This document shows positions 28,251-32,942 of a DNA stretch of 55,109 nucleotides, piece after piece. Source of the DNA: Basidiobolus meristosporus CBS 931.73 (taxonomy: Eukaryota > Basidiobolomycota > Basidiobolomycetes > Basidiobolales > Basidiobolaceae); NCBI GenBank assembly GCA_002104905.1, contig MCFE01000592.1, positions 1 through 55,109 of the forward strand, written 5' to 3'. The position numbers were made by a program, and so were the translations under genes. Within the stretch, counting starts at the first letter, position 1, and each line of letters opens with the position of its first letter. The notes beneath the pieces were generated by a model. That model saw only the letters and a program-made list of their open reading frames with translations, made no database searches and was not told where the DNA came from.

Positions 28251-29513
28251 ATGACCTGGAAGACTAATATCATCTTCGCTACTCTTTGCGCTACTGCTAC
28301 CACCTTTGCAGTTTTTGTTGAAAAACCTGGTGCCCCCGTCATCACCTCTCTTGACGCGGAGATCATCCCGAACTCCTACATTGTTGTTCTAAAGGATGAC
28401 TCCCGTTACGGATTACTCAATCATCAAGCCTGGTTATCCTCTTATTTGCAAATCGCAAACTCCGATGGTGTTCAGGCTAATCAGATCAAGCATATCTACG
28501 ATGCCGAAGGCTTCAAGGGTTATGCCGGGCGTTTCCAATCCGAGGTGGTTGAACGTATCAGAGAAATGGATGATGTAGCCTACATCGAAGCCGATTCTAT
28601 GGTTTATGTCTCCGAGCTGCAAAAGAATGCCCCATGGGGCCTCTCCAGAATCTCCCATCGTGAGGCTCTTTCATTTGGTACATTCAACAAGTACATTTAC
28701 CAGGAGAATGGTGGTAATGATGTGACTGCTTATATTGTTGACACTGGAGTGAATGTGGATCACGAGGACTTCGAAGGAAGAGCTTCATGGGGTGCCACCA
28801 TTCCCGAAAATGACGAAGACAAGGATGGCAACGGTCATGGTACTCACTGTGCAGGAACAGTTGCCGGAAAGCGTTATGGTGTTGCCAAGGGCGCCAAAAT
28901 TGTAGCTGTGAAGGTGCTCCGATCCAACGGCTCCGGAACAATGGCTGATGTAGTAAAGGGTGTTACCTGGGTTATTACCGCTCATCAACAAGCTCTACTC
29001 GAAGCCAAGAAAGCTGGCAAGAAGCACAAGGGCAGTGTTGCGAACATGAGTCTTGGTGGAGGAAAGAGTATCGCCTTAAATGAAGCTGTAAATTCTGCCG
29101 TAAATAGCGGAATTCATTTCGCCGTTGCCGCTGGTAATGACAACAGAGATGCTTGCGGTTATTCCCCAGCCTCTGCCGAGAATGCCGTTACTGTCGGTGC
29201 CAGTGACATTAGCGATGAGAGAGCTTGGTTCTCTAACCATGGTAAATGTGTAGACATTTTCGCTCCTGGAAAGGATATCACATCAACCTGGATCGGCTCC
29301 AAGGACGCCACAAACACAATCTCCGGAACTTCTATGGCCAGTCCCCATATCTGTGGACTTCTCGCTTACATGCTCTCATTCGAGTCCAACTCTACTATCA
29401 CTCCCAAGGAATTGAAGAATAAGTTGATCGAAGCCGGCACTAAGAACGTCTTGCAGAAGCTTCCAGGGGACACACCAAACGTCCTCGCCTACAACAACCC
29501 ACCCAAGGCCTAA
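28251..29513 (+). CDS. Secreted subtilisin-like serine protease (proteinase K family, S8)
   Basis: An intronless frame of 420 codons, unusual among intron-rich neighbours. Order: signal peptide (residues 1-20), I9 inhibitory propeptide (about 36-118, starting at IIPNSYIVVLKDD and ending at VAYIEADSMVYV), then the S8 catalytic domain. The triad is visible: Asp164 in VDTGVN, His196 in GHGTHCAGT and Ser361 in GTSMASP, with the oxyanion Asn296 in AAGNDN. Cysteines (200, 302, 333, 368) could form disulfides. The mature enzyme should be an extracellular or vacuolar alkaline protease. Similar enzymes are common in saprotrophic and insect- or nematode-associated fungi; the sequence alone does not say which lifestyle applies. 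The lack of introns could reflect high expression or retroposition. Confidence 0.95.
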   Translation: MTWKTNIIFATLCATATTFAVFVEKPGAPVITSLDAEIIPNSYIVVLKDDSRYGLLNHQAWLSSYLQIANSDGVQANQIKHIYDAEGFKGYAGRFQSEVVERIREMDDVAYIEADSMVYVSELQKNAPWGLSRISHREALSFGTFNKYIYQENGGNDVTAYIVDTGVNVDHEDFEGRASWGATIPENDEDKDGNGHGTHCAGTVAGKRYGVAKGAKIVAVKVLRSNGSGTMADVVKGVTWVITAHQQALLEAKKAGKKHKGSVANMSLGGGKSIALNEAVNSAVNSGIHFAVAAGNDNRDACGYSPASAENAVTVGASDISDERAWFSNHGKCVDIFAPGKDITSTWIGSKDATNTISGTSMASPHICGLLAYMLSFESNSTITPKELKNKLIEAGTKNVLQKLPGDTPNVLAYNNPPKA

Positions 29514-30325
29514 TTCTTACCCAAAAGGACTCACGACTGTACAAAAGATGTATGATCCGACCTATTTCGCGCGAATAATTTGATAAGCTTGAATTGACAG
29601 CTCATTAATTCCACACTGTAACTTCTACTAACTGGTGCTTTGATTAGTATTTTCAAAACGTAATATACAACTACCAAATTCTGGTGGCAGTACAATTATG
29701 AATAAAGCACTCTAGATAAACCAACAACCACTTTGGTAAAATCAGTTTGTTCAACTCGTGTGTACTTCGTTCCCGCAACCCATAAATTGATGAGATGACT
29801 ATCACATGATACTCCTTGCTACTCGACTCATTTTGAATTTATAGTAGATTGACAGGTTCCAAGAACCGAGCTCATTTCATCTACAGCGGGAGTAATTCAT
29901 AGTCCGGTACCCCGTTTGCCTAACACGATCCACAATTTATGACCCATTTCTCTACCAGCTACGGCCAATCAAAAATTACCAAATTTTCATTTCCCTAGTG
30001 GAATGAATCATGTCTAATCGTGCAGACCAGATTGGTATGCTTGTGGATAATTTAAACTCATGAATTATGTATTCATAATATTTTGGAGCCACCGGCAGGC
30101 CAATCACCTTCGACCACATTTGAATATTTGATGTATCCTATCAAAGAGTGTTCTTCGGCATCTGCGGATTCTCATGTCAAGGAATACCAAAGACATTCTT
30201 GGCGCGAAGAATTTATAAATACCCGACAATGTAACCATCAGAACTCAAGAAATCCAACTCATCTTGGAGTACATACGCAACCTGTTTCTTGAATCTAGTG
30301 CCACAGATCAAAGCCGCTAGTCGTC
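29514..30325. other. Intergenic, no gene recognised
   Basis: 3' region of the subtilase, then the upstream region of the HAC1-type gene. AT-rich; a short frame at 30083-30292 has no recognised content. I did not find a defensible unfolded-protein-response element. Confidence 0.45.
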
Positions 30326-31412
30326 ATGTCCTCTCTTCCCTCAAACCTCCCCCTACAACCAACCATGGTGCCAATTTTAGGGATTGAGGACATGGCGACA
30401 CTCGACAATAAGCTTTTCTTGAGTGTCTCACCTTTTTCGACGCAGAGTAACCATATCGATTCCGACTCGGATTCCAACTCTCTACCTTCTACTCCACCCT
30501 CCATATCGCCAACGAATCCACTCATCCCCGACCAATCATCCTACACTAAATTGCTCGATAACGACCTCCAGTCGCCTGCCTTCCCGCTTAACCCGACCAC
30601 ATCCCCACGAGGTCCTAGCGAGGCGCCGGTGAAACAGGAATGCATTAGCCCACAAGGGATTTGTGATTCGAAAAGAACCAAAACCGGAAACAAGGTTGGT
30701 CGCAAGCGCAAGAGTGAAGTGGTCGATAAGGAGGCCAGGGCAAAAGAGAGGTAGGTCATTGGCCGCATGACAGTACCCCCAGGCCGCGATTTCTAACGAT
30801 TTTCTCAGGGTTATTCGGAATAGAGCCGCTGCCCAAGAATCCAGGGATCGTAAGAGACGCTACATCACCGATCTGGAGGAGGCAAACACCCAGCTTCATG
30901 TGGAGAATGAGAAGTTGGGGAAGAAACTCTATGCAGTCGAACAAGAAAAGCTAACCTTGTCGAGGCAACTTGAAGCAATCACTGCTCAACTTGCCATGTT
31001 CCAAGCTCAAGCGCAAATGGTCGAGATGTCAAATTTCCTTTTTGACGGCTTTGGCGAGTCAGCAGTACTCACCAAGTTCAGACACGGTAAACGTGTCTGG
31101 AATTCTCAGCAGCGGAGGCCGTCAATTTACCAGAGGAACCTTCACAAAATGACTTCAACGGAATCTATGCACCTCAGCCAGCACAATGCTACGGCAACTA
31201 TGTTGATCCTCTTGTGGATCTTCAGCTTTGGCCTCAAGGTCAGCATTATCAGCCTCTGGCGCCAAAAGATTTCCCAATGTGATAAAGAAGTCATGGACAT
31301 CCCGACCTTACTCAAGCTTTCCCAGGAAATGCTTGAACCAAATGTGAAGGAATTGCACAAAGACTGGAGCTCATCTCCATCTTTGAACAATCAGTCTTTA
31401 TGGCCACCCTAA
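30326..31412 (+). CDS. HAC1/XBP1-type bZIP transcription factor of the unfolded-protein response, with a predicted IRE1 intron
   Basis: Exon 1 is 30326-30750; a conventional 58-nt intron (branch-like CTAAC at 30793) leads to exon 2 from 30809. The basic region and zipper are split by this intron: KER|VIRNRAAAQESRDRKRRYITDLEEAN, the Hac1/Xbp1 signature, then leucine heptads. Unspliced, the frame runs to a TAA at 31410-31412 (342 codons). Excising 31063-31109 (47 nt) at two CNG|CNGN sites shifts frame to a TGA at 31280-31282 (283 codons). The spliced tail, AEAVNLPEEPSQNDFNG...LWPQGQHYQPLAPKDFPM, is acidic and aromatic, like an activation domain. N-terminal residues 1-110 are Ser/Pro-rich. Family knowledge: IRE1 cuts such mRNAs during ER stress and tRNA ligase joins them. 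Splicing here is inferred from sequence, not measured. Confidence 0.87.
31053..31119 (+). promoter_or_regulatory. Predicted IRE1-cleaved non-canonical intron with three hairpins
   Basis: 5' site: stem GAGT/ACTC closes a 7-nt loop CAGCAGT (31060-31066), with cleavage expected after the third base (31062). 3' site: loop CAGCAGC (31107-31113), cleavage after 31109, with a weaker stem (TTCT/GGAG, two U-G pairs). Between them CAGACACG (31079-31086) and CGTGTCTG (31092-31099) form a perfect 8-bp hairpin with loop GTAAA that would bring the two sites together. The 47-nt segment (31063-31109) is 2 modulo 3, so removal changes frame, and the joined exons read GAG TCA GCA GCG GAG. Known HAC1/XBP1 introns share the loop consensus CNG|CNGN. 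Confidence 0.8.
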
Positions 31413-32012
31413 CGGGGCATTTGTAATTATATTCTGACGCAGCAATCGGGGACCGAACAAGCGTGACCCCTCAGCCTTACTGCATCCTTTTCTCTGATTT
31501 GTTAACTGAATCTTCAGAATGATTTCTCGGCTGTGTATTTTTATTTTCCTTCAGTTGGCGCAATGAGTTCGCACAATTCAATCCGAATAAATGATCAAAC
31601 AAACAAAAAACTTCTACACACTCTCCAAAGCACCCCGGTTGGACCGGCGATCCACCAAGCCCACCCAATTTTTTTGGGTTTGTTTAAACCACCAACGAGC
31701 TTCGGCACTTCTGACCTCTCTTTTGGTTCATCAAGTATCTGAATTACCCAATGTACCCAACTTCAGTGGTTTTCCCAATCCACCCAAACTAGTAGTCTTT
31801 GATCTGTTTACGTCAACGAGTGTAACCTCAACGGCGACAACTCGATCGATGTTTTACTCCTCGATCACTTGCTATGTAGATCAAACACGTTGACGTATGA
31901 GGCGCAACCATCCAACAATTCTGATTTCAAATCAGGTGGATTTGAATGTATATGATCAGTTCGATGACCAGCAACTGGTCTGGTTTATTTAAAAGTACAT
32001 CTGACGTCACGT
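31413..32012. other. Convergent spacer
   Basis: Between the stops of the bZIP gene and the aldo-keto reductase. If the bZIP mRNA is spliced by IRE1, its 3' UTR starts at 31283. No gene was recognised; a 100-codon frame at 31591-31893 is low in information. Confidence 0.45.
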
Positions 32013-32942
32013 TTACCACTTCATCCAGTCGGGGGATACAACACGTTTTCTGGTCTTGATATTATTAATCTTCTCGATGTCCTCCTTAGATAGCTCGAAC
32101 ACATCGAAGTTGGAGACGATACGTTTCTCGGTGACCGATTTTGGAATAATCGAGATATCACGAGCCAAGAGCCAGCTAAGCAGTACTTGGGCCTCGGTGT
32201 GGTTGTTCTTCTTGGCGATCTCAACAATCACAGGATCATCCATCAGCTTGGGTTCACTGCCAGAGCCAAGGGGACTGTAGGCGGTGATATGAATGCCATG
32301 CTTCTTACAGAAATCGTAGAGCTCATTTTGAGGGTGATATACATGCGTTTCAACTTGAAGAACGGCTGGTGTAACGCTGCCTTCTTTCAAGACTCTTTCA
32401 AGGTGTTGGATCTGGAAGTTGGAGACACCAATGTTCTTCACCTTGCCAGTATCAAGCAACTTCTCCATGGCCTTCCAAGTGTCGACATAGTCGGTGTCGA
32501 CAACATAGGCTTTGCCGTCGTCGCCCTTGGGGAAAGTTTCCTTGCCACTCTTGAAGGCGACAGGCCAATGCATCAAGTAGAGATCGAGATAGTCGACACC
32601 CAACTTCTTCAAAGACAGGTCCAAGGCAGAGGGCACATCAGCAGGGTCGTGGAAGGTGTTCCAGAGCTTGGAGGTAATCCAGAGCTTTTCACGGGGGATG
32701 CCAGAAGCGGCAATAGCTTCGCCAACCTCTTCTTCATTGCCGTAAATGTAGGCACAGTCGATATGACGGTATCCAGCCTTCAAAGCGATCTCAACAGCCT
32801 TTCTGACTTCGTTCTTGGGAGATTGCCAAGTACCGAAGCCAACCAAGGGGATTTGAGAGCCAGAAGCAAGTTGGAAGGTGCGTTGGTTAGCCATTTTCTT
32901 TAGTATGCTCATCGAAGAATGTTTGTAGTTGAGGGTCGGCAC
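32013..32942 (-). CDS. NADPH-dependent aldo-keto reductase (Gcy1/Ypr1-like)
   Basis: An intronless frame of 309 codons; the family norm is about 310-325. It should reduce aldehydes or ketones with NADPH in the cytosol. The catalytic tetrad is visible, counting from the first Met: Asp62 and Tyr67 in HIDCAYIYGNE, Lys92 in ITSKLW and His125 in LYLMHWPV. Other signatures: GVSNFQIQHLERVL, QVETHVYHPQNEL, AYSPLGSGSEP and the cofactor-binding IIPKSVTEKRIVSN. The true start may be Met17 (MANQRTFQLASG, at 32894), which gives the usual short N-terminus. Substrate is not predictable; glycerol-type and xylose-type reductases are both possible. It is convergent with the bZIP gene. Confidence 0.93.
   Translation of the reverse strand: MPTLNYKHSSMSILKKMANQRTFQLASGSQIPLVGFGTWQSPKNEVRKAVEIALKAGYRHIDCAYIYGNEEEVGEAIAASGIPREKLWITSKLWNTFHDPADVPSALDLSLKKLGVDYLDLYLMHWPVAFKSGKETFPKGDDGKAYVVDTDYVDTWKAMEKLLDTGKVKNIGVSNFQIQHLERVLKEGSVTPAVLQVETHVYHPQNELYDFCKKHGIHITAYSPLGSGSEPKLMDDPVIVEIAKKNNHTEAQVLLSWLLARDISIIPKSVTEKRIVSNFDVFELSKEDIEKINNIKTRKRVVSPDWMKW

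Follow-up and report, generated by a model that had tools for sequence, protein, structure and literature searches.

The HAC1/XBP1-type locus and its two reading frames

The DNA analyzed here (hereafter, the window) is a 55,109-nt stretch corresponding to contig C860 of the genome of Basidiobolus meristosporus CBS 931.73 (Basidiobolomycota; 89,006,234 bases in 1311 contigs). It harbors a bZIP gene whose basic region is split by an ordinary GT-AG intron; in the paralogue C1024 (see below), the ORF runs through the site of that intron. The bZIP domain, which lies upstream of a second, IRE1-type intron, was recovered above cut-off with both PF07716 and PF00170 from Pfam. If only the GT-AG intron is removed, the gene encodes a product of 342 residues that ends at the stop at 31410-31412 and is the same as the public protein P0003 of this strain. 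Excision of a further 47 nt, which is 2 modulo 3, leads to a stop at 31280-31282 and a product of 283 residues that has its first 227 residues in common with the longer one. This switch from a 342-codon to a 283-codon frame, as claimed in the original prediction, was reproduced exactly from the sequence. The C terminus encoded by the spliced frame is similar to that of C1024 (z 9.8). Judged by its sequence, the gene is a HAC1/XBP1-type unfolded-protein-response regulator of B. meristosporus. The features of the locus are collected in Table 1.

Table 1. Coordinates of the features of the bZIP locus in the window
Feature	Position	Strand	Evidence
Coding exon 1, bZIP (HAC1/XBP1-type) gene	30326..30750	+	ORF, GT-AG join, identity to P0003
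Ordinary GT-AG intron, 58 nt, within basic region	30751..30808	+	GT-AG join; absent from paralogue C1024
Coding sequence to predicted IRE1 5' cut (rest of basic region, zipper, ...GES)	30809..31062	+	ORF; Pfam
Exon-exon stem, 5' arm	31042..31049	+	partner 31118-31125; all 8 pairs kept in 3 copies
Outer helix of 5' splice hairpin	31051-31054 with 31072-31075	+	pairs in all 3 copies
5' splice hairpin GAGU[CAGCAGU]ACUC, predicted cut after 31062	31056..31070	+	sequence; pair probability 0.94-0.98 in window
Putative IRE1-excised intron, 47 nt	31063..31109	+	heptamers CAGCAGT 31060-31066, CAGCAGC 31107-31113
Intronic hairpin, 10 bp (31077-31086 with 31092-31101)	31077..31101	+	fold; comparison with C580
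3' splice hairpin UUCU[CAGCAGC]GGAG, predicted cut after 31109	31103..31117	+	identical in 3/3 copies
Exon after IRE1 intron, spliced frame; stop TGA 31280-31282	31110..31282	+	translation; C1024 similarity in spliced frame
Exon-exon stem, 3' arm	31118..31125	+	partner 31042-31049
Hydrophobic segment, unspliced frame, residues 273-289 (MLILLWIFSFGLKVSII), proposed HR2 counterpart	31200..31250	+	hydropathy; codon randomization
Unspliced-frame coding sequence past spliced stop	31283..31409	+	C1024 similarity in frame; frame-blind alignment
Trp-Pro-Pro-stop end of unspliced frame	31401..31412	+	TGGCCACCCT (31401-31410) invariant in all three copies

The neighboring genes, by the look of their sequences, code for a subtilisin-like protease and an aldo-keto-reductase-like protein (28251-29513 and 32013-32912 [-]). 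The end of the contig (48933-54886) is occupied by Copia-type retrotransposon ORFs, with two similar copies in opposite orientation.

The IRE1-type intron and its predicted fold

IRE1 sites of the HAC1/hacA type are described as two 7-nt loops cut at CNG|CNGN (PMC6037481). The original prediction had placed a 47-nt segment between two such heptamers, and its coordinates, heptamers, and length proved exact. There are four matches to CNGCNGN in the region 30326-31500, of which only the two that bracket the intron are closed by 4 pairs (the others by 1 and 0). The composite splice-site pattern GAGTCAGCAGTN{20,50}TCTCAGCAGCGGAG occurs 3 times in the 89 Mb of the genome, each time in a bZIP paralogue, and its reversed version, run as a control over the same 89 Mb, has 0 matches. 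We infer that IRE1 splices this transcript and regard the 47-nt segment as almost certainly a HAC1/XBP1 intron excised by that enzyme, as originally proposed; the proposal fits the conservation of the site in two paralogues, the compensatory pairs, the bZIP domain, and the presence of two IRE1 genes and a Trl1-type ligase in the genome. The length of the intron, which had been given weight as unusual, is within the published fungal range and is not exceptional in itself, because the intron of Cryptococcus HXL1 measures 56 nt (PMC3154848) and yeast introns of the HAC1 type were reported to span 19 to 379 nt and later up to almost 850 nt (PMC6222058).

The region 31000-31170 folds better than all 200 of its shuffled versions (z -2.70). 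Of the three hairpins expected from folding, the intronic one was recovered, with a stem of 10 bp rather than the 8 bp originally read, as was the 5' splice hairpin in the window; the hairpin of the 3' heptamer, however, is absent from the minimum-energy fold in all three copies of the gene, the pair probabilities of its stem being at most 0.05. The 5' splice hairpin is favored in two of the three copies and is not in the fold of C1024 (pair probabilities of at most 0.12). Enforcing both 7-nt hairpins would cost 2.9 kcal/mol in the window, 7.4 in C1024, and 7.8 in C580. In place of this two-hairpin form, the predicted fold is dominated by the 8-bp stem that joins the two exons, a stem that is expected here since a zipper has been described for XBP1 (PMC6037481). 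Two pairs of this stem are changed on both sides among the three copies, and in the intronic stem a gapless alignment of the window with C580 shows 8 of the 10 pairs kept, 3 two-sided changes, and 2 broken pairs. Controls in which the structure was slid along the alignment gave 0 or 1 two-sided pairs, versus 4 and 2 observed; with only 2 and 3 sequences to compare, 35/500 and 64/500 shuffles score as high, and the covariation of the intronic and exon-exon stems is suggestive only.

Paralogues and splicing machinery in the same genome

A search of the genome with the bZIP part yielded 10 matches, including the window and two close paralogues with identities of 69% and 65%. C580 and C1024 keep both loops and both 4-bp stems, with introns of 47 nt (C580) and 59 nt (C1024) that are both 2 modulo 3; heptamers and 4-bp stems are found in 3/3 copies (window, C580, and C1024). 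The C580 protein (P0005) is without a precomputed Pfam domain and lacks five residues of the basic region (alignment A1: RNRAA-----EIKRR), and the C580 gene has early stops in both frames and the Trp-Pro-Pro bases out of frame. It looks like a decaying copy or an antagonist without DNA binding.

The IRE1 RNase domain (PF06479) was matched three times, at the two loci C374 and C747, both of which also have kinase exons; the genome carries two IRE1 genes. Compared with solved structures, the C374 RNase domain matches 16 of IRE1 and 2 of RNase L (best E 1.4e-38), with RNKxHH kept. The first long exons of C374 and C747 gave no Pfam match, and the luminal domain is thus unconfirmed. A further locus, C620, encodes the RNA ligase, kinase, and CPD domains of a fungal (Trl1-type) tRNA ligase. 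The two IRE1 genes (C374 and C747) stand beside three HAC1-type genes, and the paralogues might pair by function.

Probable selection on the unspliced frame

The 342-codon frame had been presented only as the form that precedes splicing. Its own conserved C-terminal tail had been overlooked, and this tail is the more interesting part of the locus. Past the spliced stop, coding is possible in the unspliced frame alone. Comparison of the window with C1024 in this region gave a score of 77 in the unspliced frame (z 12.2; 0/2000 shuffles). The z values of the two control frames were 3.0 (31/2000) and 0.1, and those of the 3'UTR were 1.6, 0.4, and -1.1. An alignment made blind to frame placed 124/124 aligned bases in phase beyond the spliced stop, at 55% identity, compared with 22/137 bases in phase and 41% identity in the 3'UTR. 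Substitutions past the spliced stop are distributed over the three codon positions as 18, 16, and 22, with little third-base excess. Where the two frames overlap, the wobble base of the spliced frame is changed in 17/51 codons and that of the unspliced frame in 21/50, compared with 61/99 for the bZIP part (binomial 4e-5 for the spliced frame and 0.004 for the unspliced one).

We also randomized codons, keeping the spliced-frame protein, drawing its codons at random, and scoring the hydropathy of the unspliced frame in 5000 trials. The unspliced frame came out as hydrophobic as the natural one in 5/5000 trials for the window, 9/5000 for C1024, and 661/5000 for C580. Thus, the spliced frame does not by itself account for the hydrophobic segment of the window and C1024, whereas C580 fails this test. 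In the reverse test, with the unspliced protein fixed, an open spliced frame resulted in 121/5000 trials for the window, 152/5000 for C1024, and 851/5000 for C580, and the net acidity of this frame does not stand out much (408/5000, 195/5000, and 125/5000 in the same order). The clean part of the randomization is hydropathy only, and the paralogues are not independent of one another; the similarity of the unspliced frame in these trials (0/5000 in each of the three copies) was dropped as proof, because it is inflated by common descent. These comparisons make it very probable that the unspliced frame is under selection, as is the spliced frame.

The C-terminal tail and a candidate route to the ER

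The hydrophobic segment, which exists in the unspliced frame only, has a mean hydropathy over 17 residues of 2.24 in the window and 2.10 in C1024. We compared the tails of five full-length Basidiobolus proteins from two species, leaving out a partial sixth, P0023, and all five contain a conserved hydrophobic stretch (WILIWIFSFGL or similar). At the C-terminal end, Leu-Trp-Pro-Pro is found in 3/5 and Leu-Trp-Pro-Thr in 1/5 (one B. ranarum protein), and the motif is lost in C580; hence, 4/5 combine the hydrophobic segment with a Leu-Trp-Pro-Pro/Thr end. The distance from the segment to the C terminus is 53 residues in the window and 57, 57, and 47 in the others with this end; it is 37 in C580. 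The ribosome exit tunnel is 30 to 40 residues long. With 47 to 57 residues lying in between in four of the five proteins, the segment would be outside the tunnel by the time the C-terminal end is made.

Animal XBP1u directs its uncut mRNA to the ER via SRP by means of a hydrophobic region, HR2, together with a pause at the C terminus (PMC4138184, PMC9217131, and PMC4456659), and in human cells a terminal diproline stalls ribosomes (PMC9648851). On the strength of these two precedents, we propose an XBP1u-like recruitment for the Basidiobolus gene. Before stress, the unspliced mRNA would be translated, and with some 50 codons left to the stop the hydrophobic segment would emerge from the ribosome and be bound as a signal-anchor (SRP route). 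Slow termination at Leu-Trp-Pro-Pro-stop would prolong this tether, such that the mRNA would wait at the ER beside IRE1. Upon ER stress, IRE1 would be activated and cut both loops, the covarying exon-exon stem would keep the cut exons together, and the Trl1-type ligase would join them, allowing the 283-residue activator to be made. We consider it reasonably probable, from sequence features and analogy with animals, that the unspliced mRNA is recruited in this XBP1u-like manner in a fungus; SRP binding, pausing, and ER association are the predicted elements. Recruitment of this kind would follow the logic of animal XBP1u rather than the 3'UTR logic of yeast.

Related proteins in other fungi

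An alignment search (A2) contributed only 3 proteins. A search with the tail of a Podila protein recovered 41 proteins, nearly all of the named ones from Mortierella relatives. Both splice-site signatures are recognizable at the protein level in 38/41 of these Mortierella-type proteins. The 17-residue hydropathy beyond the zipper reaches at least 1.6 in 34/41 and at least 1.3 in 40/41; the sole exception, P0069, is apparently translated in a different frame in this part. A fixed pattern for an IVTE-type helix near the end matches 36/41. Searches of viral and genome contig collections for the Mortierella-type loci found no relative, and these tails, known from proteins alone, may be the shadow of an acidic segment. 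Separately, 27/41 end in Lys-Lys, and most share an amphipathic-looking EEIVTEFRQGRKDVARGLLVKALL stretch near the end.

The hydropathy tally is drawn from 69 retrieved proteins, with P0011, P0012, P0014, and P0023 omitted as short, partial, or divergent. Outside the Mortierella type, a hydropathy of at least 1.3 was reached by 0/9 Mucorales-type proteins (5 named and 4 unnamed look-alikes), 1/1 from Endogone, and, in counts that may mix spliced and unspliced forms, 2/6 from metagenomes and 2/3 from chytrids. The chytrid proteins P0022 and P0029 are HAC1-like and have a strongly hydrophobic segment (2.03 and 2.12) with no recognizable splice-site signature. Two annotated Mucor proteins disagree in the neighborhood of the site: P0013 has CDSAAEVAKHDE and looks like the product of a spliced frame, and P0019 has CDSARIAKKESEVAKHDE. 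The arrangement in Mucor may be different or shorter.

Alternative explanations

The conserved tail might serve another protein-level role, either as the anchor of a membrane-bound precursor resembling plant bZIP60u, in which a membrane anchor is present, or, like pXBP1(U), as a degron or an antagonist acting on the spliced form. The same evidence from tail conservation, frame similarity, and codon randomization speaks for such a role, and pXBP1(U) is reported to target pXBP1(S) for degradation (PMC5636610). However, 47 to 57 residues separate the segment from the C terminus in 4/5 proteins, and it is the very last residues that are conserved, which suits a termination pause more than an anchor; one function does not preclude the other, and we rate another protein role as the explanation of the tail as rather unlikely. 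Constraint might instead act on the RNA, with TGGCCACCCT being part of a localization element that docks the mRNA at IRE1, like the bipartite element in the yeast 3'UTR. This element spans the unspliced stop, and 10/10 of its bases, wobble bases included, are invariant, even in C580, where it is out of frame, a pattern that suits an RNA element no less than a peptide. An RNA element would nevertheless leave unexplained both the hydrophobic segment and the protein-level similarity past the spliced stop (z 12.2), and no Rfam family matched 30300-31600 up to an E value of 1; we consider this explanation improbable but a real rival.

It is a little more improbable still that the locus has a plain HAC1-type intron and that its unspliced tail is a side effect of conservation in the sequence it overlaps. 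A shadow effect of this type can happen, because the hydrophobic stretch of the Mortierella type overlaps the acidic segment ELFDSFLDLDW of P0069 in another frame, and the hydrophobicity of C580 is within chance. Yet the similarity extends past both spliced stops into sequence that lacks a second frame, and the codon test returned only 5 and 9 of 5000. As for the frame switch itself, the original prediction had pointed to a spliceosomal junction elsewhere, for example from 31086 to 31110, as a competitor to IRE1; the GT lies at 31087, not 31086. Together with the AG at 31108-31109, it would delimit an intron at 31087-31109 of 23 nt, also 2 modulo 3, and 23 nt is very short for a spliceosomal intron. 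This candidate was rejected as highly implausible: the aligned GT reads GG in C580, both conserved heptamers would go unexplained, and P0003, the public model, is continuous across this segment. XBP1u-like recruitment thus remains our preferred reading of the tail, and excision by IRE1 that of the intron.

Comparison with known systems

The uncut message is described as reaching IRE1 in two ways: in yeast, translation of HAC1 mRNA is blocked and an element in the 3'UTR recruits the message, whereas in animals a nascent peptide does so (PMC9217131), a route called conserved across metazoans (PMC4138184). A fungus with an HR2-like segment and a conserved end in the unspliced frame would make the ancestral mode of recruitment testable. 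We tentatively raise the possibility, which we consider doubtful as it stands, that the XBP1u device predates the animal-fungal split and survives in early-diverging fungi (Basidiobolus and Mortierella relatives), with the 3'UTR docking of yeast HAC1 as a later replacement. Among the matches listed in our searches of open-licence PubMed Central, there was no report of the Basidiobolus case or of an XBP1u-like tail in any fungus.

Like ascomycete HAC1/hacA and Cryptococcus HXL1, the Basidiobolus system combines two 7-nt loops with IRE1 and a Trl1-type ligase, and its intron is similar in size to the 56-nt one of HXL1. Unlike in yeast HAC1, the unspliced frame is conserved and a duplex between the 5'UTR and the intron is no better than chance; a yeast-like block was accordingly rejected (-22.2 versus a mean of -17.9 kcal/mol; 38/300 shuffles as low, with the 5'UTR assumed to be 30201-30325). 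In plant bZIP60, the unspliced form has a hydrophobic membrane segment that is removed by IRE1 splicing, and the likeness to Basidiobolus is one of general description rather than of sequence. The uORFs that stall ribosomes with a terminal diproline, namely, uORF2 of cytomegalovirus UL4 and several human uORFs (PMC9648851), likewise have Pro-Pro right before the stop; in Basidiobolus, unlike in these uORFs, Pro-Pro ends a 342-codon frame.

The differences from metazoan XBP1 are an intron of 47 or 59 nt instead of 26, a Leu-Trp-Pro-Pro end that shares none of the motifs tested with the XBP1u pause peptide, and the presence of Trl1-type ligase domains where animals use RtcB as the ligase. The likenesses are a bZIP gene with IRE1-type loops, a frame switch that provides a new C terminus, and an open unspliced frame that is itself conserved and in which a conserved C-terminal end comes after a hydrophobic segment.
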